DNA of 64,000 nucleotides, taken from contig NZ_FOWQ01000005.1 of the NCBI RefSeq assembly GCF_900115505.1, forward strand, positions 1-64,000, given 5' to 3'. Of the stretch, positions 23,903 through 29,522 are shown piece by piece. Positions within the stretch are counted from its first letter, which is position 1, and each line of letters begins with the position of its first letter. The translations under genes were made by a program, and so were the position numbers. The notes under the pieces were generated by a model. It was given only the letters and a program-made list of their open reading frames with translations, ran no database searches and was not told the origin of the DNA. Origin of the DNA: Geodermatophilus dictyosporus. GTDB taxonomy: Bacteria; Actinomycetota; Actinomycetes; Mycobacteriales; Geodermatophilaceae.

Positions 23903-24033
23903 TGATCCCAGGGTAGGCGCTCGGACGGCGGAACCCGAGCGGTTTGGCGGGTGACGTCCACAGCAGCCCCGCGTGTCCACAGGGGGAGGGAGACCTGTTC
24001 CGCCGGCGCCGGTCGCGCGCCACCATCCGGGTC

Positions 24034-26193
24034 GTGAGCACGCCGACCTGGGCACCGCCCTGTCCCGTCTGCGGCACGCCGGCCGCGCCGGCACCCGCTC
24101 CGTGCGGCACGTGCGGGCTGCCCGCCGTCGCGCAGGCCGCCACCGTGGTGGCCCGGCTGGGCGCGACGATCGACGAGTTCCGCCGCGAGCGCGACGCGCT
24201 GGTCGCCACCCTCCGCGCCGCGGCGGTGGGCGGCCCGGTCGTGGCCTCCCCACCGGTCGTGGCCTCCCCACCGGTCGTGGCCTCCCCACCGGTCGTGGCC
24301 TCACCGCCGGCGGCGCCGCCGCGCCCACCGGCGTGGGCCCCGCCCCTCCCGCCGGCCGTCCCCGCTCCCCCGCCGACGGCCCCGCGGGTGGCCCCGCCCG
24401 CGCCGGCCCCGGTCCCGCGCCGGCGGGTCAGCCCGCAGCAGGTTCTCGTCGGTCTCGGTGCGCTGCTCGTGGTGGCCGCGTCGCTGGCCTTCGTGGCGGT
24501 GGCCTGGACCCGCCTGGGGGTGACCTTCCAGGCGGCGGTCATGGCCGCGGTCACCGCGGCGGCGGCGGGCGCGTCGGCGTGGACCGCGCGCCGCGGCCTG
24601 CGGGCCACCGAGGAGGCACTGGCGGCCGCCGGCGCGGCGCTGCTCGCCGTCGACCTCGGCGCCGCCCACGCGCTGAGGCTGTGGGGTGCTGACGCCGTCC
24701 CCGGGCGGCTGTGGGCGGCCCTGAGCTGCACGCTGGTCGCCCTGGTGGCCGTGGGACTGGGCCGGTCGACCCGCAGCACGGTCACGTGGCCGGTGGTGGC
24801 GCTGCTGGCCGCCCAGCCGGTGGGGCTGCTGCTCCTGCCCGACGGGCAGGACGGCCGGGTCGCGGGTGTCGCCGTCGTCGCCGGGACGGCGCTCGCCGAC
24901 GTCCTCGTGGTGCTCCTGCTGCGCCGGTCGCTGCACCCCCTGGCGCTCGGCCTGGCCGCGCTCTGGGCGGTGGCCGTGGCGCTGCGCGGGCTCGCGCTGG
25001 CGTGGTCGCTCGACCCGGTGCAGTCGTGGACGGCCACGGTCCTGCTCGGGGTGGCCGGCGCCGTCGCGGTGCCCCTGCTGCGGGAGCTCCGGCCGGCCGA
25101 CCCGCGGCTGGTGGCGGCCGTCGCCGCGGGACTGTCCGCGGTGGCGCTGAGCGGTTCGCTGAGCGGTGTCGGCGTGCTCGGTCCGGTCGCGGCCGGAGGC
25201 CTCGGCCTGGTGCTGCTGGCCGCCGCGGCGCCGGTGCGCTCGGCGCCGGCCGTCCTCGCCGCCCTGCTGACCTCCGGGGCGGCCCTGGTGGCCACCGGTG
25301 GCGGGGTGGTCGCCGAGGCCGGCCGGACCGACCTGCTGGCACTGCTGGCCCTGGCCGCCACCGTGCCCGCGGCGCTGGCCGCGGTGCTGCGCCCGGAGCT
25401 GCGGGCCGTGGCCACCGGCGCGGCCCTGGCCGCGCCCGGAGTGGCCGGGGGGCTCGCCTCCGGCACGCTGCTCCGGCCGGAGGCCGCCGGGCTGCTGCTC
25501 GCCGCAGTCGCCGCGGTCGCCTTCGGGGTGGCCGCGCTGCGGGCGCCCTCGCCGGAGGAGGCCGCCGCGGCATCCGTCGGCGGCGCCACCGGCCTCGTCG
25601 CCGGCCTGCTGACCTGGCCGACAGGGGCCCACGGGCTCGTGGCGGTGGACCTGGCCGTCGCCGGTGCGGCCGCCGGCGTCTACGCGCTGGTGACCCGGCA
25701 GCGGCTCGTGGCGGCGCTGGCCGTGGCCGAGCTGGTGGTCGCCGGCTGGATCGCGGCCGCCGGGGCGGAGATCCGGACGCCGGAGGTCTACACGCTGCCG
25801 GCGGCAGCCGGGCTGCTGCTGCTCGCCGTCCCGGCGCTGCGCTCCGGCGCGCCGTCGTGGGCCGCGGAGGGCGCGGCGCTCGCCGTGGCGCTGGTGCCCT
25901 CGGCCGTGGTGGTCGTGGCCGACCCGACGGCGGTCCGGCTGACCGGAGTGGTCGTCGCCGCGGCCGCGCTCACCGTGGCCGGGACGCTCACCCACCGGCA
26001 GGCGCCGTTCGTCGTCGGCGCGGGGACGCTCCTGCTGGTGGTCGCCGGCCGGCTCGGCCCCTACGCGCCGCTGGTGCCGCGCTGGGTCACGCTCGCCACC
26101 GTGGGGCTGGTGCTGCTCGTCGTCGGTGCCACCTACGAGCGCCGCCGCCAGCAGGCACGGGAGGCGGTGGCCTGGGTGGCCCAGATGCGCTGA
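24034..26193 (+). CDS. Large polytopic membrane protein with N-terminal zinc ribbon, paralogue 1
   Basis: A 719-residue protein of a family I cannot name. Residues 9-30 hold two C-x-x-C pairs (C-P-V-C and C-G-T-C), a zinc-ribbon-like head. A short helix follows, then a Pro-rich linker with four V-V-A-S-P-P units (about 69-92), then roughly 18-20 Ala/Leu/Val membrane helices to the end, finishing with a short basic tail. The first helices contain G-L-R-A-T-E-E-A, which recurs as G-L-R-S-T-E-E-A in the next gene, so the two are paralogues. Start is the GTG at 24034, just before the cysteines. Function unknown; the zinc ribbon is cytoplasmic if the N-terminus is inside. Confidence 0.8.
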   Translation: MSTPTWAPPCPVCGTPAAPAPAPCGTCGLPAVAQAATVVARLGATIDEFRRERDALVATLRAAAVGGPVVASPPVVASPPVVASPPVVASPPAAPPRPPAWAPPLPPAVPAPPPTAPRVAPPAPAPVPRRRVSPQQVLVGLGALLVVAASLAFVAVAWTRLGVTFQAAVMAAVTAAAAGASAWTARRGLRATEEALAAAGAALLAVDLGAAHALRLWGADAVPGRLWAALSCTLVALVAVGLGRSTRSTVTWPVVALLAAQPVGLLLLPDGQDGRVAGVAVVAGTALADVLVVLLLRRSLHPLALGLAALWAVAVALRGLALAWSLDPVQSWTATVLLGVAGAVAVPLLRELRPADPRLVAAVAAGLSAVALSGSLSGVGVLGPVAAGGLGLVLLAAAAPVRSAPAVLAALLTSGAALVATGGGVVAEAGRTDLLALLALAATVPAALAAVLRPELRAVATGAALAAPGVAGGLASGTLLRPEAAGLLLAAVAAVAFGVAALRAPSPEEAAAASVGGATGLVAGLLTWPTGAHGLVAVDLAVAGAAAGVYALVTRQRLVAALAVAELVVAGWIAAAGAEIRTPEVYTLPAAAGLLLLAVPALRSGAPSWAAEGAALAVALVPSAVVVVADPTAVRLTGVVVAAAALTVAGTLTHRQAPFVVGAGTLLLVVAGRLGPYAPLVPRWVTLATVGLVLLVVGATYERRRQQAREAVAWVAQMR
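24237..24308 (+). repeat. 18-bp tandem repeat (four units)
   Basis: GGTCGTGGCCTCCCCACC repeated three times perfectly and once with changes, in frame, encoding V-V-A-S-P-P units of the linker. Confidence 0.93.
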
Positions 26194-26199
26194 GCCGGA

Positions 26200-26235
26200 C
26201 GGCCGCCGGGCCCCTAGCGTGGGACCCGGCGGCCG
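26200..26235 (+). promoter_or_regulatory. Inverted repeat enclosing a -10 candidate
   Basis: Eleven-base perfect arms CGGCCGCCGGG / CCCGGCGGCCG flank a 14-base spacer that holds TAGCGT (26215-26220). The second arm ends just before the ribosome site of paralogue 2. It could be an operator around a promoter or an intercistronic hairpin. Confidence 0.4.
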
Positions 26236-26252
26236 AGGGGAGGGGGACGGCG

Positions 26253-28117
26253 ATGGCGTCTGCGCCCGTGCCTCCCCTGCCCTACCCCGGTCGGCCGCCG
26301 CTGGTCCCCGAGCAGGCGCCGGTGCCGGCGCTGCCGGCCCGGCTGCGGCCGCCGCAGGTGCTGCTGGCCGTCGGCGTGGTGCTGCTGGTGGCCGCCGGGG
26401 TGGCCGGGCCGGCGCTGGTCGGGGCGGGTCCCGCCCGCACCGGGGTGCTGCTGCTCGCCGCCGGGGCCGGCGGCGCCTCCGCCTGGGCGGGCCGGGCCGG
26501 CCTGCGCAGCACCGAGGAGGCCTGTGCGGCCGCCGCGGCGGCCCTGGCGCTGACCGGCGCGGCCGCCGGCGACCGCCCGCTCGACGGCGGTCCGGTACCC
26601 CCGCTGCTGCTCGCGGCGGCCCTGCTCGCGCTGCGGCTGCTGCGCCCGGAGCCGCTGTCCTGGCCGCTGGCCGCGTGGGTGGCGCTGCAGGTGGCCGCGC
26701 TGCGCTCGCTGGACCTGGTCGCCGCCGGCGTCCCCCGCACGGCGCTGCTGCTGGCCGTCGCCCTCACCGGTCTCGGCCTCACCGTCGTCGCGCGCCCGGT
26801 GCTCGCCCGGGTGGCCCTGGTGACCGCCGCCACCTGGTGGGTGACCGGGGTCGCCGGCGGGCTGGTCACCGCGGCGACCGCCGACGGCGCCGACCGCTGG
26901 CTGTCGGCCGCGCTCACCGTGGCCGTGGCGGCGGCCCTGCTGCCCGTGCGGCTGGTCCGGGCGGTGGAGCCGCTGACGGGCCCGCCGCGGGCGCTGCCCG
27001 TGCTCGCGGGCCTGGTCGCCGGCGGGGCGGTCGGCGCCGCGCTGTCCACCGACGGGGTCCTGGCGCTGCCCGCAGCCGGGGAGCTGGGCGTGCTGGTGGT
27101 CTCGGTCGCCGCGGGGACGCTGACCGGCTGGCGGCGGGGGATGCTGCTGCCCGCCGCCGGGGCGGCCGGAGGGGTGCTCGTCGTCCTCGCCGTCGCCCAG
27201 CTGACCGCCGGCGCCCGCTGGGCGGCGCTGGTGGTGCTGCTGCTGCTCACCGCGCTGCCCGCGGCCTGGGTGGCCGCCGTCCGGCGCGACGAGCGCCCCA
27301 CGGCGGCGCCCACCGCGCTGGGCTGCCTGGCCGCGGCGGCGCTGCTCGCCGTGCCGGCCGGCCTCCTCCCCCCGGGCGGGTGCGCGGCGGCGCTCACCGC
27401 CCTCTACGCCGCCTCGCTGGCCGCCCGGCCCGGGACGGCCGCCGACGTCCGCGGTCCCACGGGCGCCGTCGGGGCGGTCTGCGCCGCCGCGGCACTGGTG
27501 GTCCTCGCCGCCGACGGCGCGTGGGGGCAGCTGGCCGCGCACCTGGCGGTGCAGGGCGCGCTGACCTGGGCGTGGGGCCTGTACCGGGGACGGTCGACCG
27601 AGGCGGGCTCAGCGGCGGCCGCGGAGTCGGAGGCGGAGGCGTGCCGGCGGGTGGGCGCGGCCGAGGCCGTGGCCGCGGCCTGGACGTGCGCCGCGCTGGC
27701 CGGGTCGACGGTGGTGGAGAGCTGGGCGCTGCCCCCCGCGGCCGGGCTGCTGCTGGCCGCCGGCCCCGGCTGCTCGACGCGGGGTGGCCGTCCTGGCCGA
27801 CGTGGGGTCCGGGGCTGGTCACCGCCGCCGTGCCCTCGACGGTCGCCGCGGTCGTGCAGCCCGGTGCGCTGCGGCCCGTGCTGGTCCTGGTGGTCGCGGC
27901 GGTGGTCATGGCGCTGGCCGGCCGGGCCGCGCTGCGGGCCCCGCTGGTCACCGCGGCGGCCACCGCCGTCGCCCTGGGCGTCGGGCTGGCCGCCGCCGAG
28001 CTGCCGCTCCCGGTGGCCGGCGTCCTGGTCGTCGGCGGGGCGCTGCTCGCGCTCGGCGCGCTGCGCGAGTCCCGCCCGGTCGCCGGTTTCGGTGCCCGGC
28101 TGTCGGAGATGCGCTGA
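26253..28117 (+). pseudogene. Polytopic membrane protein, paralogue 2, interrupted by a one-base frameshift
   Basis: ATG at 26253 with AGGGGGA upstream. The frame reads a multi-helix membrane protein similar to paralogue 1 (shared L-R-P-P-Q-V-L and G-L-R-S-T-E-E-A) but with no zinc ribbon. It runs to L-P-P-A-A-G-L-L-L-A-A-G-P near 27767. There the similarity passes to another frame, which continues L-L-D-A-G-W-P-S-W and membrane helices to L-S-E-M-R and TGA at 28115-28117, matching the end of paralogue 1 (Q-M-R). One extra C in the CCCC run at 27764-27767 would restore a 621-residue protein. Unrepaired, the first frame runs on to about 28490, deep into the opposing protease gene. A real mutation or a sequencing error cannot be told apart here. 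Confidence 0.8.
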
Positions 28118-28138
28118 CCCGAGGCGAGCGCGGAGAGG

Positions 28139-29329
28139 TCAGCGCGGCCCGGGGTACGAGACCCGCGAGACGTCGGCCCCGCCGCCGGCGGAGGGGTGGC
28201 GGGCGAAGGCGGCGAGGTCGGTCAGCTGCAGCAGCCGCGTGACGTCGCTCGGGGACACCACGCCGACGACCCGGCCGCCGTCGAGCACGACCGCCCGGCC
28301 GTCGCTGCAGCCCTCCATCCGGCCCAGCAGGTCGAGCAGCGGGTCGCCCGGGGAGGACACCGGGATCTCCGACAGCGGGCAGGCGACGTCGCCCAGCCGC
28401 GTGGTCGCCCGGGCGTCACCCGGCACCGAGCGCAGCCGGTTGAGCGTCACCAGGCCGGTCAGCGCGCCGGTCCGGTCGACGAGCGGGTAGGTGCTGAACC
28501 GGTGCACCAGCGCGACCTCGTGCAGGAACTGCTCGACCGGCTGGTCGGGGTCGGCGACGAGGACCGGGCCGCCCATCACCTGCCCGACGGTCAGTCCCGC
28601 GAGCCGCCCGGACACCGCGGCGTGCTGCTCCTCGGCACTCGCGGCGTTGACCAGGAACAGGCCGATCAGGCCCAGCCACAGCCCGCCCAGGCCGCTGCCG
28701 GTGACCAGCTGGAGGGCGCCCAGCGCGATGAGCACGAACCCGAGGAACCGCCCGGCCCGGGACGCCGTGACCGCCGACGACCACGGGTCGCCGCGGCGCC
28801 ACCACAGCAGCGCCCGCAGCAGCCGCCCGCCGTCCAGCGGCGAGGCCGGGACCAGGTTGAACAGGGCCAGCGACAGGTTGATGACGGCCAGGTAGTCGAG
28901 GACCGCCACCGGCAGCCCGTCGGCGCCTGATGCCCGCGCGAGCACGGCGGCCGCGGCGAACGCACCGCTGAGCACGAGGCTGGTGAGCGGGCCGACGCCG
29001 GCGATGCGGAACTCCGCCCCCGGCGTCCGGGCGCCGCCGCGCAGCCGGGCGACCCCGCCGAGCAGCCACAGCGTGATGCCCTCCACCTCGACCCCGTTGC
29101 GCCGGGCGACCAGCGCGTGGGCCAGCTCGTGGGCCAGCAGCGAGACGAGGAAGGCCAGCGCCGCGGCCAGCGCGGCGGCGGCGTAGGCCAGCCCGCTGCG
29201 GCCGGGCAGCACGAGCGGGAACCGGCCCGTCGCCAGGCCCACCGCGATGATCAGGACGATCACCAGCACGCTCGCGTTGACACCGACCCGGATGCCGGCG
29301 ATCCGGCCGAGTCGGAAGGTCTCGGTCAT
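28139..29329 (-). CDS. Site-2 protease family (M50) zinc metalloprotease with CBS domains
   Basis: A 396-residue intramembrane protease. The zinc motif H67-E-L-A-H71 lies in the second membrane helix; the third ligand region is S-P-L-D-G-G-R near 165. About six helices precede two cytoplasmic CBS domains (about 245-380), which usually sense adenine nucleotides. This is the Rip3-like group of S2P; targets may be anti-sigma factors or membrane remnants, but none is linked here. The ATG has GAGGAGC upstream. The stop is only 21 bases from the convergent membrane paralogue. Confidence 0.9.
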   Translation of the reverse strand: MTETFRLGRIAGIRVGVNASVLVIVLIIAVGLATGRFPLVLPGRSGLAYAAAALAAALAFLVSLLAHELAHALVARRNGVEVEGITLWLLGGVARLRGGARTPGAEFRIAGVGPLTSLVLSGAFAAAAVLARASGADGLPVAVLDYLAVINLSLALFNLVPASPLDGGRLLRALLWWRRGDPWSSAVTASRAGRFLGFVLIALGALQLVTGSGLGGLWLGLIGLFLVNAASAEEQHAAVSGRLAGLTVGQVMGGPVLVADPDQPVEQFLHEVALVHRFSTYPLVDRTGALTGLVTLNRLRSVPGDARATTRLGDVACPLSEIPVSSPGDPLLDLLGRMEGCSDGRAVVLDGGRVVGVVSPSDVTRLLQLTDLAAFARHPSAGGGADVSRVSYPGPR

Positions 29330-29419
29330 GCGGTGCTCCTCGGGGGCAGGCGGTGCGTCGATCACTGGCGCACTACCCGGTGGCACACCACCGACACCGC
29401 GGGCCGCCGGAACGACGAC

Positions 29420-29443
29420 GGCCCGCACCCCGGGGGGTGCGGA
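29420..29443. terminator. Small hairpin in the S2P/suf intergenic region
   Basis: CCGCACC-CC paired with GG-GGTGCGG, at 29423-29441. It may end suf transcripts that pass the repeat element or sit in the S2P promoter region. Confidence 0.35.
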
Positions 29444-29464
29444 CCGGTCGTGACCTACAGGAGC

Positions 29465-29522
29465 GGCCCGGCTGCGGGGTCCCGCGGCGCACGGAGCGTG
29501 GCGCCGGGGGCAGCCGGGTCCC
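29465..29522 (-). repeat. Copy 3 of the 3'-end hairpin family (suf operon terminator)
   Basis: Begins directly at the sufT stop: GGGACC, stem CCCGGCTGC with GCAGCCGGG, loop with CCCC, GGCGCCACGCTC, CGCGGGACCCC. It is the most diverged copy. Confidence 0.65.

Follow-up and report, generated by a model that had tools for sequence, protein, structure and literature searches.

The window, i.e. the whole stretch of 64,000 nucleotides that was analysed, comes from a genome of 4.69 Mb in 16 contigs. Two membrane protein genes, here called paralogue 1 and paralogue 2, lie in tandem on its plus strand and are faced by the gene of an M50 metalloprotease. Among named relatives, Geodermatophilus tzadiensis and G. 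telluris are the nearest found at this locus. The following features are present at the locus.

24034..26193, plus strand: paralogue 1, an intact membrane protein with a SCO7613_CTERM domain (NF047321, 154.3 bits)
26253..27761, plus strand: head of paralogue 2, the part before the shift, 503 codons with the ATG at 26253 (reading frame, relatives)
27762..27767, plus strand: GGCCCC stretch, one base fewer than in eight relatives aligned as DNA (DNA alignment, phase-split score)
27762..28490, plus strand: unshifted continuation of the first frame, 242 codons, overlapping the M50 gene (open frame)
27770..28117, plus strand: tail of paralogue 2, the part after the shift, 115 codons plus TGA (28115-28117), end of the SCO7613_CTERM domain (NF047321 match)
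28139..29428, minus strand: opposing M50-family metalloprotease with CBS domains (Pfam PF02163, PF00571)

The DUF2157 model of Pfam scores 31.1 bits on paralogue 1, which is below its cut-off of 32.4. Paralogue 1 also carries a short tandem repeat, VVASPP, in four copies (24238-24309 of the window). The repeat comes after the cysteine pairs CPVCG and CGTCG, which are putatively zinc-ribbon-like. The region 24001-28000, which holds both membrane paralogues, has a GC content of 82% and an AT skew of -0.42, and no other of the window's sixteen 4-kb blocks is as extreme. The M50 protease gene comes next after paralogue 2 not only in the window but also in the genomes G001, G004, G019 and G023, and it is located elsewhere in nine other members of the genus. 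Its distribution is patchy, with no close match in 12 of the 26 genus members, including the nearest relatives, G002 and G006.

The coding frame at the GGCCCC stretch

The sequence-only reading had proposed a one-base frameshift in paralogue 2 at the C run 27764-27767. Open frames say little in DNA as rich in GC as this, and codon-position composition was therefore used. Between 26253 and 27782, in steps of 90 bases, the third position of the first frame has 90-100% GC and the second position 53-80%. Beyond 27782 the second position of the first frame climbs to 87-100% GC, and this continues up to 28142. The count of A and T at third positions is minimal for a split at 27758-27782 (in steps of six), and a seven-state phase scan of the window places the switch in paralogue 2 at 27756. 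The window contains 34 same-strand frame switches. In thirty of these the upstream frame is closed by a stop within 75 bases, the pattern of ordinary gene borders. Of the remaining four, three have a segment of less than 200 bases, and the fourth is the paralogue 2 site, at which the upstream frame meets its stop 732 bases further on. It is the only switch in the window with both segments of at least 250 bases and no upstream-frame stop within 75 bases.

The head of paralogue 2 was searched in 61 genomes, including the window's own. Matches were obtained in 34 of them, at least one of which (G014) matched to paralogue 1 only. The best 29 matches from relatives, which come from the window's genus and, in five cases, from five other genera of its family, were taken as loci and read as DNA. 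Outside these 29 there are weaker matches in G028, G030 and G033 and a second copy in G020, which matches residues 10-632 of 632 and contains no stops. Of the 29, locus L029 starts at the edge of a contig, and L034 comes from G017, whose gene is broken elsewhere, and represents the second piece of it. The head shares 47-87% identity with the 29 loci. In all 29 the tail shares its frame with the head, or with the piece of the head that matched, which bears out the frame switch, and the position given for the run is correct. No locus ends naturally near 27770 with a conserved tail in the first frame, a result that the sequence-only reading had named as contrary evidence.

The eight relatives aligned as DNA all have one more base within GGCCCC, in agreement with the proposed shift by a single base. 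The letter in the inserted column varies among them and is T, A, G or C: G006 has five C at the site, and G002 has a T followed by four C. The earlier proposal that one added C restores the frame is thus right as to the one absent base; its identity as C is likely from the run and from the five C of G006, but is inferred. No second lesion was found in the alignment of paralogue 2 with the eight relatives. Just past the lesion, four base differences from G006 lie within seven bases (27780-27786), in a stretch in which two codons are absent in six of the eight aligned relatives.

Beyond the shift, paralogue 2 continues as the protein-like sequence LLDAGWPSWPTWGPGL from 27770, ends with SEMR and stops at 28117, in the TGA at 28115-28117, as had been described. 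The span 26253-28117 has 1865 bases, one base short of 622 codons, so that the figure of 621 residues for the restored protein is arithmetically right. The continuation in the first frame had been said to run about 350 bases into the protease gene; this frame is open to 28490, and its overlap with the minus-strand M50 frame measures 352 bases. Similarity to paralogue 1, on which the shift had originally been based, does exist in the tail (36% identity over 101 residues), but at an E value of 0.046 it is too weak to serve as sole proof. The best E value of the unshifted tail against paralogue 1 is 8.4.

The model NF047321 (SCO7613_CTERM, 188 positions, cut-off 45) scores 49.9-63.7 bits on the intact paralogue 2 of all four relatives tested. 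The tail in the window matches positions 73-188 of the model with 44.2 bits, just below the cut-off, and with 42.5 bits in the search of the whole genome. The unshifted product of 745 residues has no NCBIfam match at E 1, and the head of paralogue 2 alone has no Pfam or NCBIfam match at E 0.1. Ser, Arg and Pro abound in the unshifted extension, which contains no hydrophobic segment, whereas the part encoded after the shift is hydrophobic. Structure prediction for an intact relative (L070 together with seven others) was poor, with a mean pLDDT of 55.8 and a pTM of 0.48; the pLDDT of this L070 prediction is below 50 across residues 496-632, with the exception of one residue.

Age of the loss and dispensability of paralogue 2

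G006 is without the loss, and the loss, if real, is therefore younger than the split from G006. The dS of the head between the window and G006 is 0.145. Changes on the branch leading to the window were counted at codons at which G002 and G006 agree. There are 16 synonymous and 10 non-synonymous changes in the head, and 5 and 6, respectively, in the tail, which are small numbers. Of the six non-synonymous changes that the tail shows on this branch, three are found, by our count, at 27782-27787, directly past the lesion. A clean one-base event does not explain this cluster. Since the tail is protein-like and no second lesion accompanies the shift, the loss is either recent or artificial.

The dN/dS ratios of the paralogue 2 head are 0.43 and 0.51, and those of paralogue 1 in comparison with the same two species are 0.24 and 0.29. 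By these ratios, the constraint on paralogue 2 is looser than that on paralogue 1. In 23 of the 25 other members of the genus paralogue 2 is present with no detected break, although in G011 it is covered only from residue 78. The single-contig genome G017 carries a one-base loss of its own in paralogue 2 (L034 and L078; contig C1, about 2984990). It resembles the event in the window in being an independent loss of one base, but it is located near residue 256, and the gene of G017 is in frame at the site of the window's lesion. In G014 paralogue 1 was matched (L077, contig C26), and neither paralogue 2 nor the M50 protease gave a match. The gene that comes directly after paralogue 1 in G014 is found further on in the window and presumably encodes a SufT-like protein. 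Because G017 has its own loss and G014 is without a match, paralogue 2 seems dispensable in the genus.

Interpretation of the frame switch

It is highly probable that paralogue 2 has suffered an isolated, non-programmed loss of one base within GGCCCC at 27762-27767, seen only here among the genomes examined, whether as a consensus error or as a recent deletion. The homologues are uninterrupted at the site, and the coding signature switches with no first-frame stop nearby. We propose that the deposited sequence is short of one base here, and that the affected gene encodes an ordinary polytopic membrane protein whose C-terminal domain is of the SCO7613 type. If the sequence were translated as deposited, the ribosome would go out of frame about 116 codons ahead of the natural stop. 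About 240 unrelated residues would then be added, and the last membrane helices would be lost. The feature is ordinary in kind.

Other explanations were considered for the two frames. Programmed -1 ribosomal frameshifting or transcriptional slippage could yield two proteins from paralogue 2, one short and one full-length. The zero-frame codon CCC is preceded by a C, so that one tRNA could slip back, and the sequence around it can be drawn as a GC-rich hairpin. The canonical heptamer for a -1 slip is X_XXY_YYZ, which GGC_CCC_GGC does not fit. With DNA parameters, a 71-base fold is no stronger than those of shuffled sequences, with a z of -0.54 and 57 of 200 shuffles folding at least as well. 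No Rfam family reaches its gathering score in 25800-29500. Conservation under purifying selection is expected of genuine programmed sites, as stated in a part of the GeneTack paper (PMC3711429), yet the shift is present in none of the 29 relatives' loci and the eight aligned ones have not conserved the C run. The unshifted extension lacks a hydrophobic segment and has no match in the comparisons made. Apart from the C ahead of the CCC codon, nothing positive was found in favour of programmed recoding, which is very improbable. We also put very little belief in a related possibility, a real switch restricted to this lineage, in which paralogue 2 would be made in truncated form, its arginine-rich tail encoded antisense to the protease gene, together with a little full-length protein through slippage.

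Phase variation, in which the length of the run would flip the gene on and off within the population, would fit a lesion that lies within a C run of an apparently dispensable gene. The tracts usual in phase variation are far longer than four to five bases, whereas the run here is only that long, and it is not kept in the eight aligned relatives, which differ in the letter at that column. Phase variation is accordingly a most unlikely cause. Practically no credence can be given to the view that paralogue 2 ends naturally in the first frame and that the tail forms a gene of its own or a dead one. The first frame does stay open for 242 further codons, but a good part of this extension lies over the opposing protease gene, and the codon-position composition departs from the first frame at 27758-27782. 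A natural end at the site is found in none of the 29 loci, and a single domain model bridges the junction in the four relatives tested. The isolated loss of one base remains by far the preferred interpretation.

Consensus error or mutation, and comparison with known systems

The isolated loss may have two causes. A consensus error in the GC-rich sequence has about an even chance of being responsible, and a real, very recent deletion of the slippage type in a dispensable gene has a little under an even chance. A long-standing pseudogene is disfavoured because no other damage is seen. The frequency of comparable lesions was assessed by scanning 32 further stretches (640 kb) of the window genome in the same way as the window, 704 kb in total, with at least 250 bases on both sides required for a break. 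Two strong frame breaks were found in these 704 kb, one in 400 kb of G002 and none in 260 kb of G006, counts too small to favour either cause. The second break in the window genome lies in a gene for a DUF5701 protein (G000, contig C10, about 606250; L087:6250-6255). It also occurs at GGCCCC and goes in the same direction. The two parts of this gene match positions 1-81 and 87-204 of Pfam PF18959 in different frames. The gene is in one frame in 13 of 14 relatives' loci, and the fourteenth, L105, has no match to its head. Within the 704 kb scanned, GGCCCC on either strand makes up 0.9% of positions, and 3.8% of positions have it within ten bases on each side. The occurrence of both breaks at GGCCCC is unlikely by chance and suggests a common cause, but the choice of the motif was post hoc.

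Five-base runs of C or G number 207 per 100 kb, compared with 195 and 198 in G002 and G006. Since they are not depleted in relation to these genomes, runs are not generally miscalled, and the presence of only two strong breaks in 704 kb likewise speaks against a general base-calling fault. Paralogue 2 seems dispensable, as judged from G014 and G017, and a real mutation is therefore about as credible as an error. The lesion calls for caution in annotation, because in a GC-rich genome long frames stay open on either side of a one-base loss. Gene prediction could then yield a spurious protein of 745 residues that overlaps its neighbour. If the lesion is real, it would be a further sign that membrane paralogue 2 is expendable in the genus.

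The break in paralogue 2 resembles the singletons of the GeneTack survey of prokaryotic genomes, as a section of that paper describes them (PMC3711429), in that it is a frame switch within a gene, has uninterrupted homologues and is shared by no relative examined. It differs in its source: the GeneTack set comprises 1106 complete genomes, and the present assembly has 16 contigs. According to the same portion of the text, singletons with a frameshift validated by BLASTp are expected to be sequencing errors and not genuine indels, and breaks that both BLASTp and Pfam confirm represent either errors in functional genes or indels in pseudogenes. Close to the 3′ end of a gene, the authors find, the balance tips relatively towards indels and away from errors; the break in paralogue 2 is located about four fifths along the gene.

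The protein itself can be compared with other proteins carrying the SCO7613 C-terminal domain. The intact copies of paralogue 2 in the relatives (four of four) pass the threshold of NF047321, and paralogue 1 matches this model strongly. The paralogue 2 of the window differs from all of these in that its domain is divided between two frames. SCO7613 of Streptomyces coelicolor is reported, in the part of the study that deals with it (PMC8313934), not to be essential; its deletion lowered polyhydroxyalkanoate, an effect that may be indirect according to the authors.
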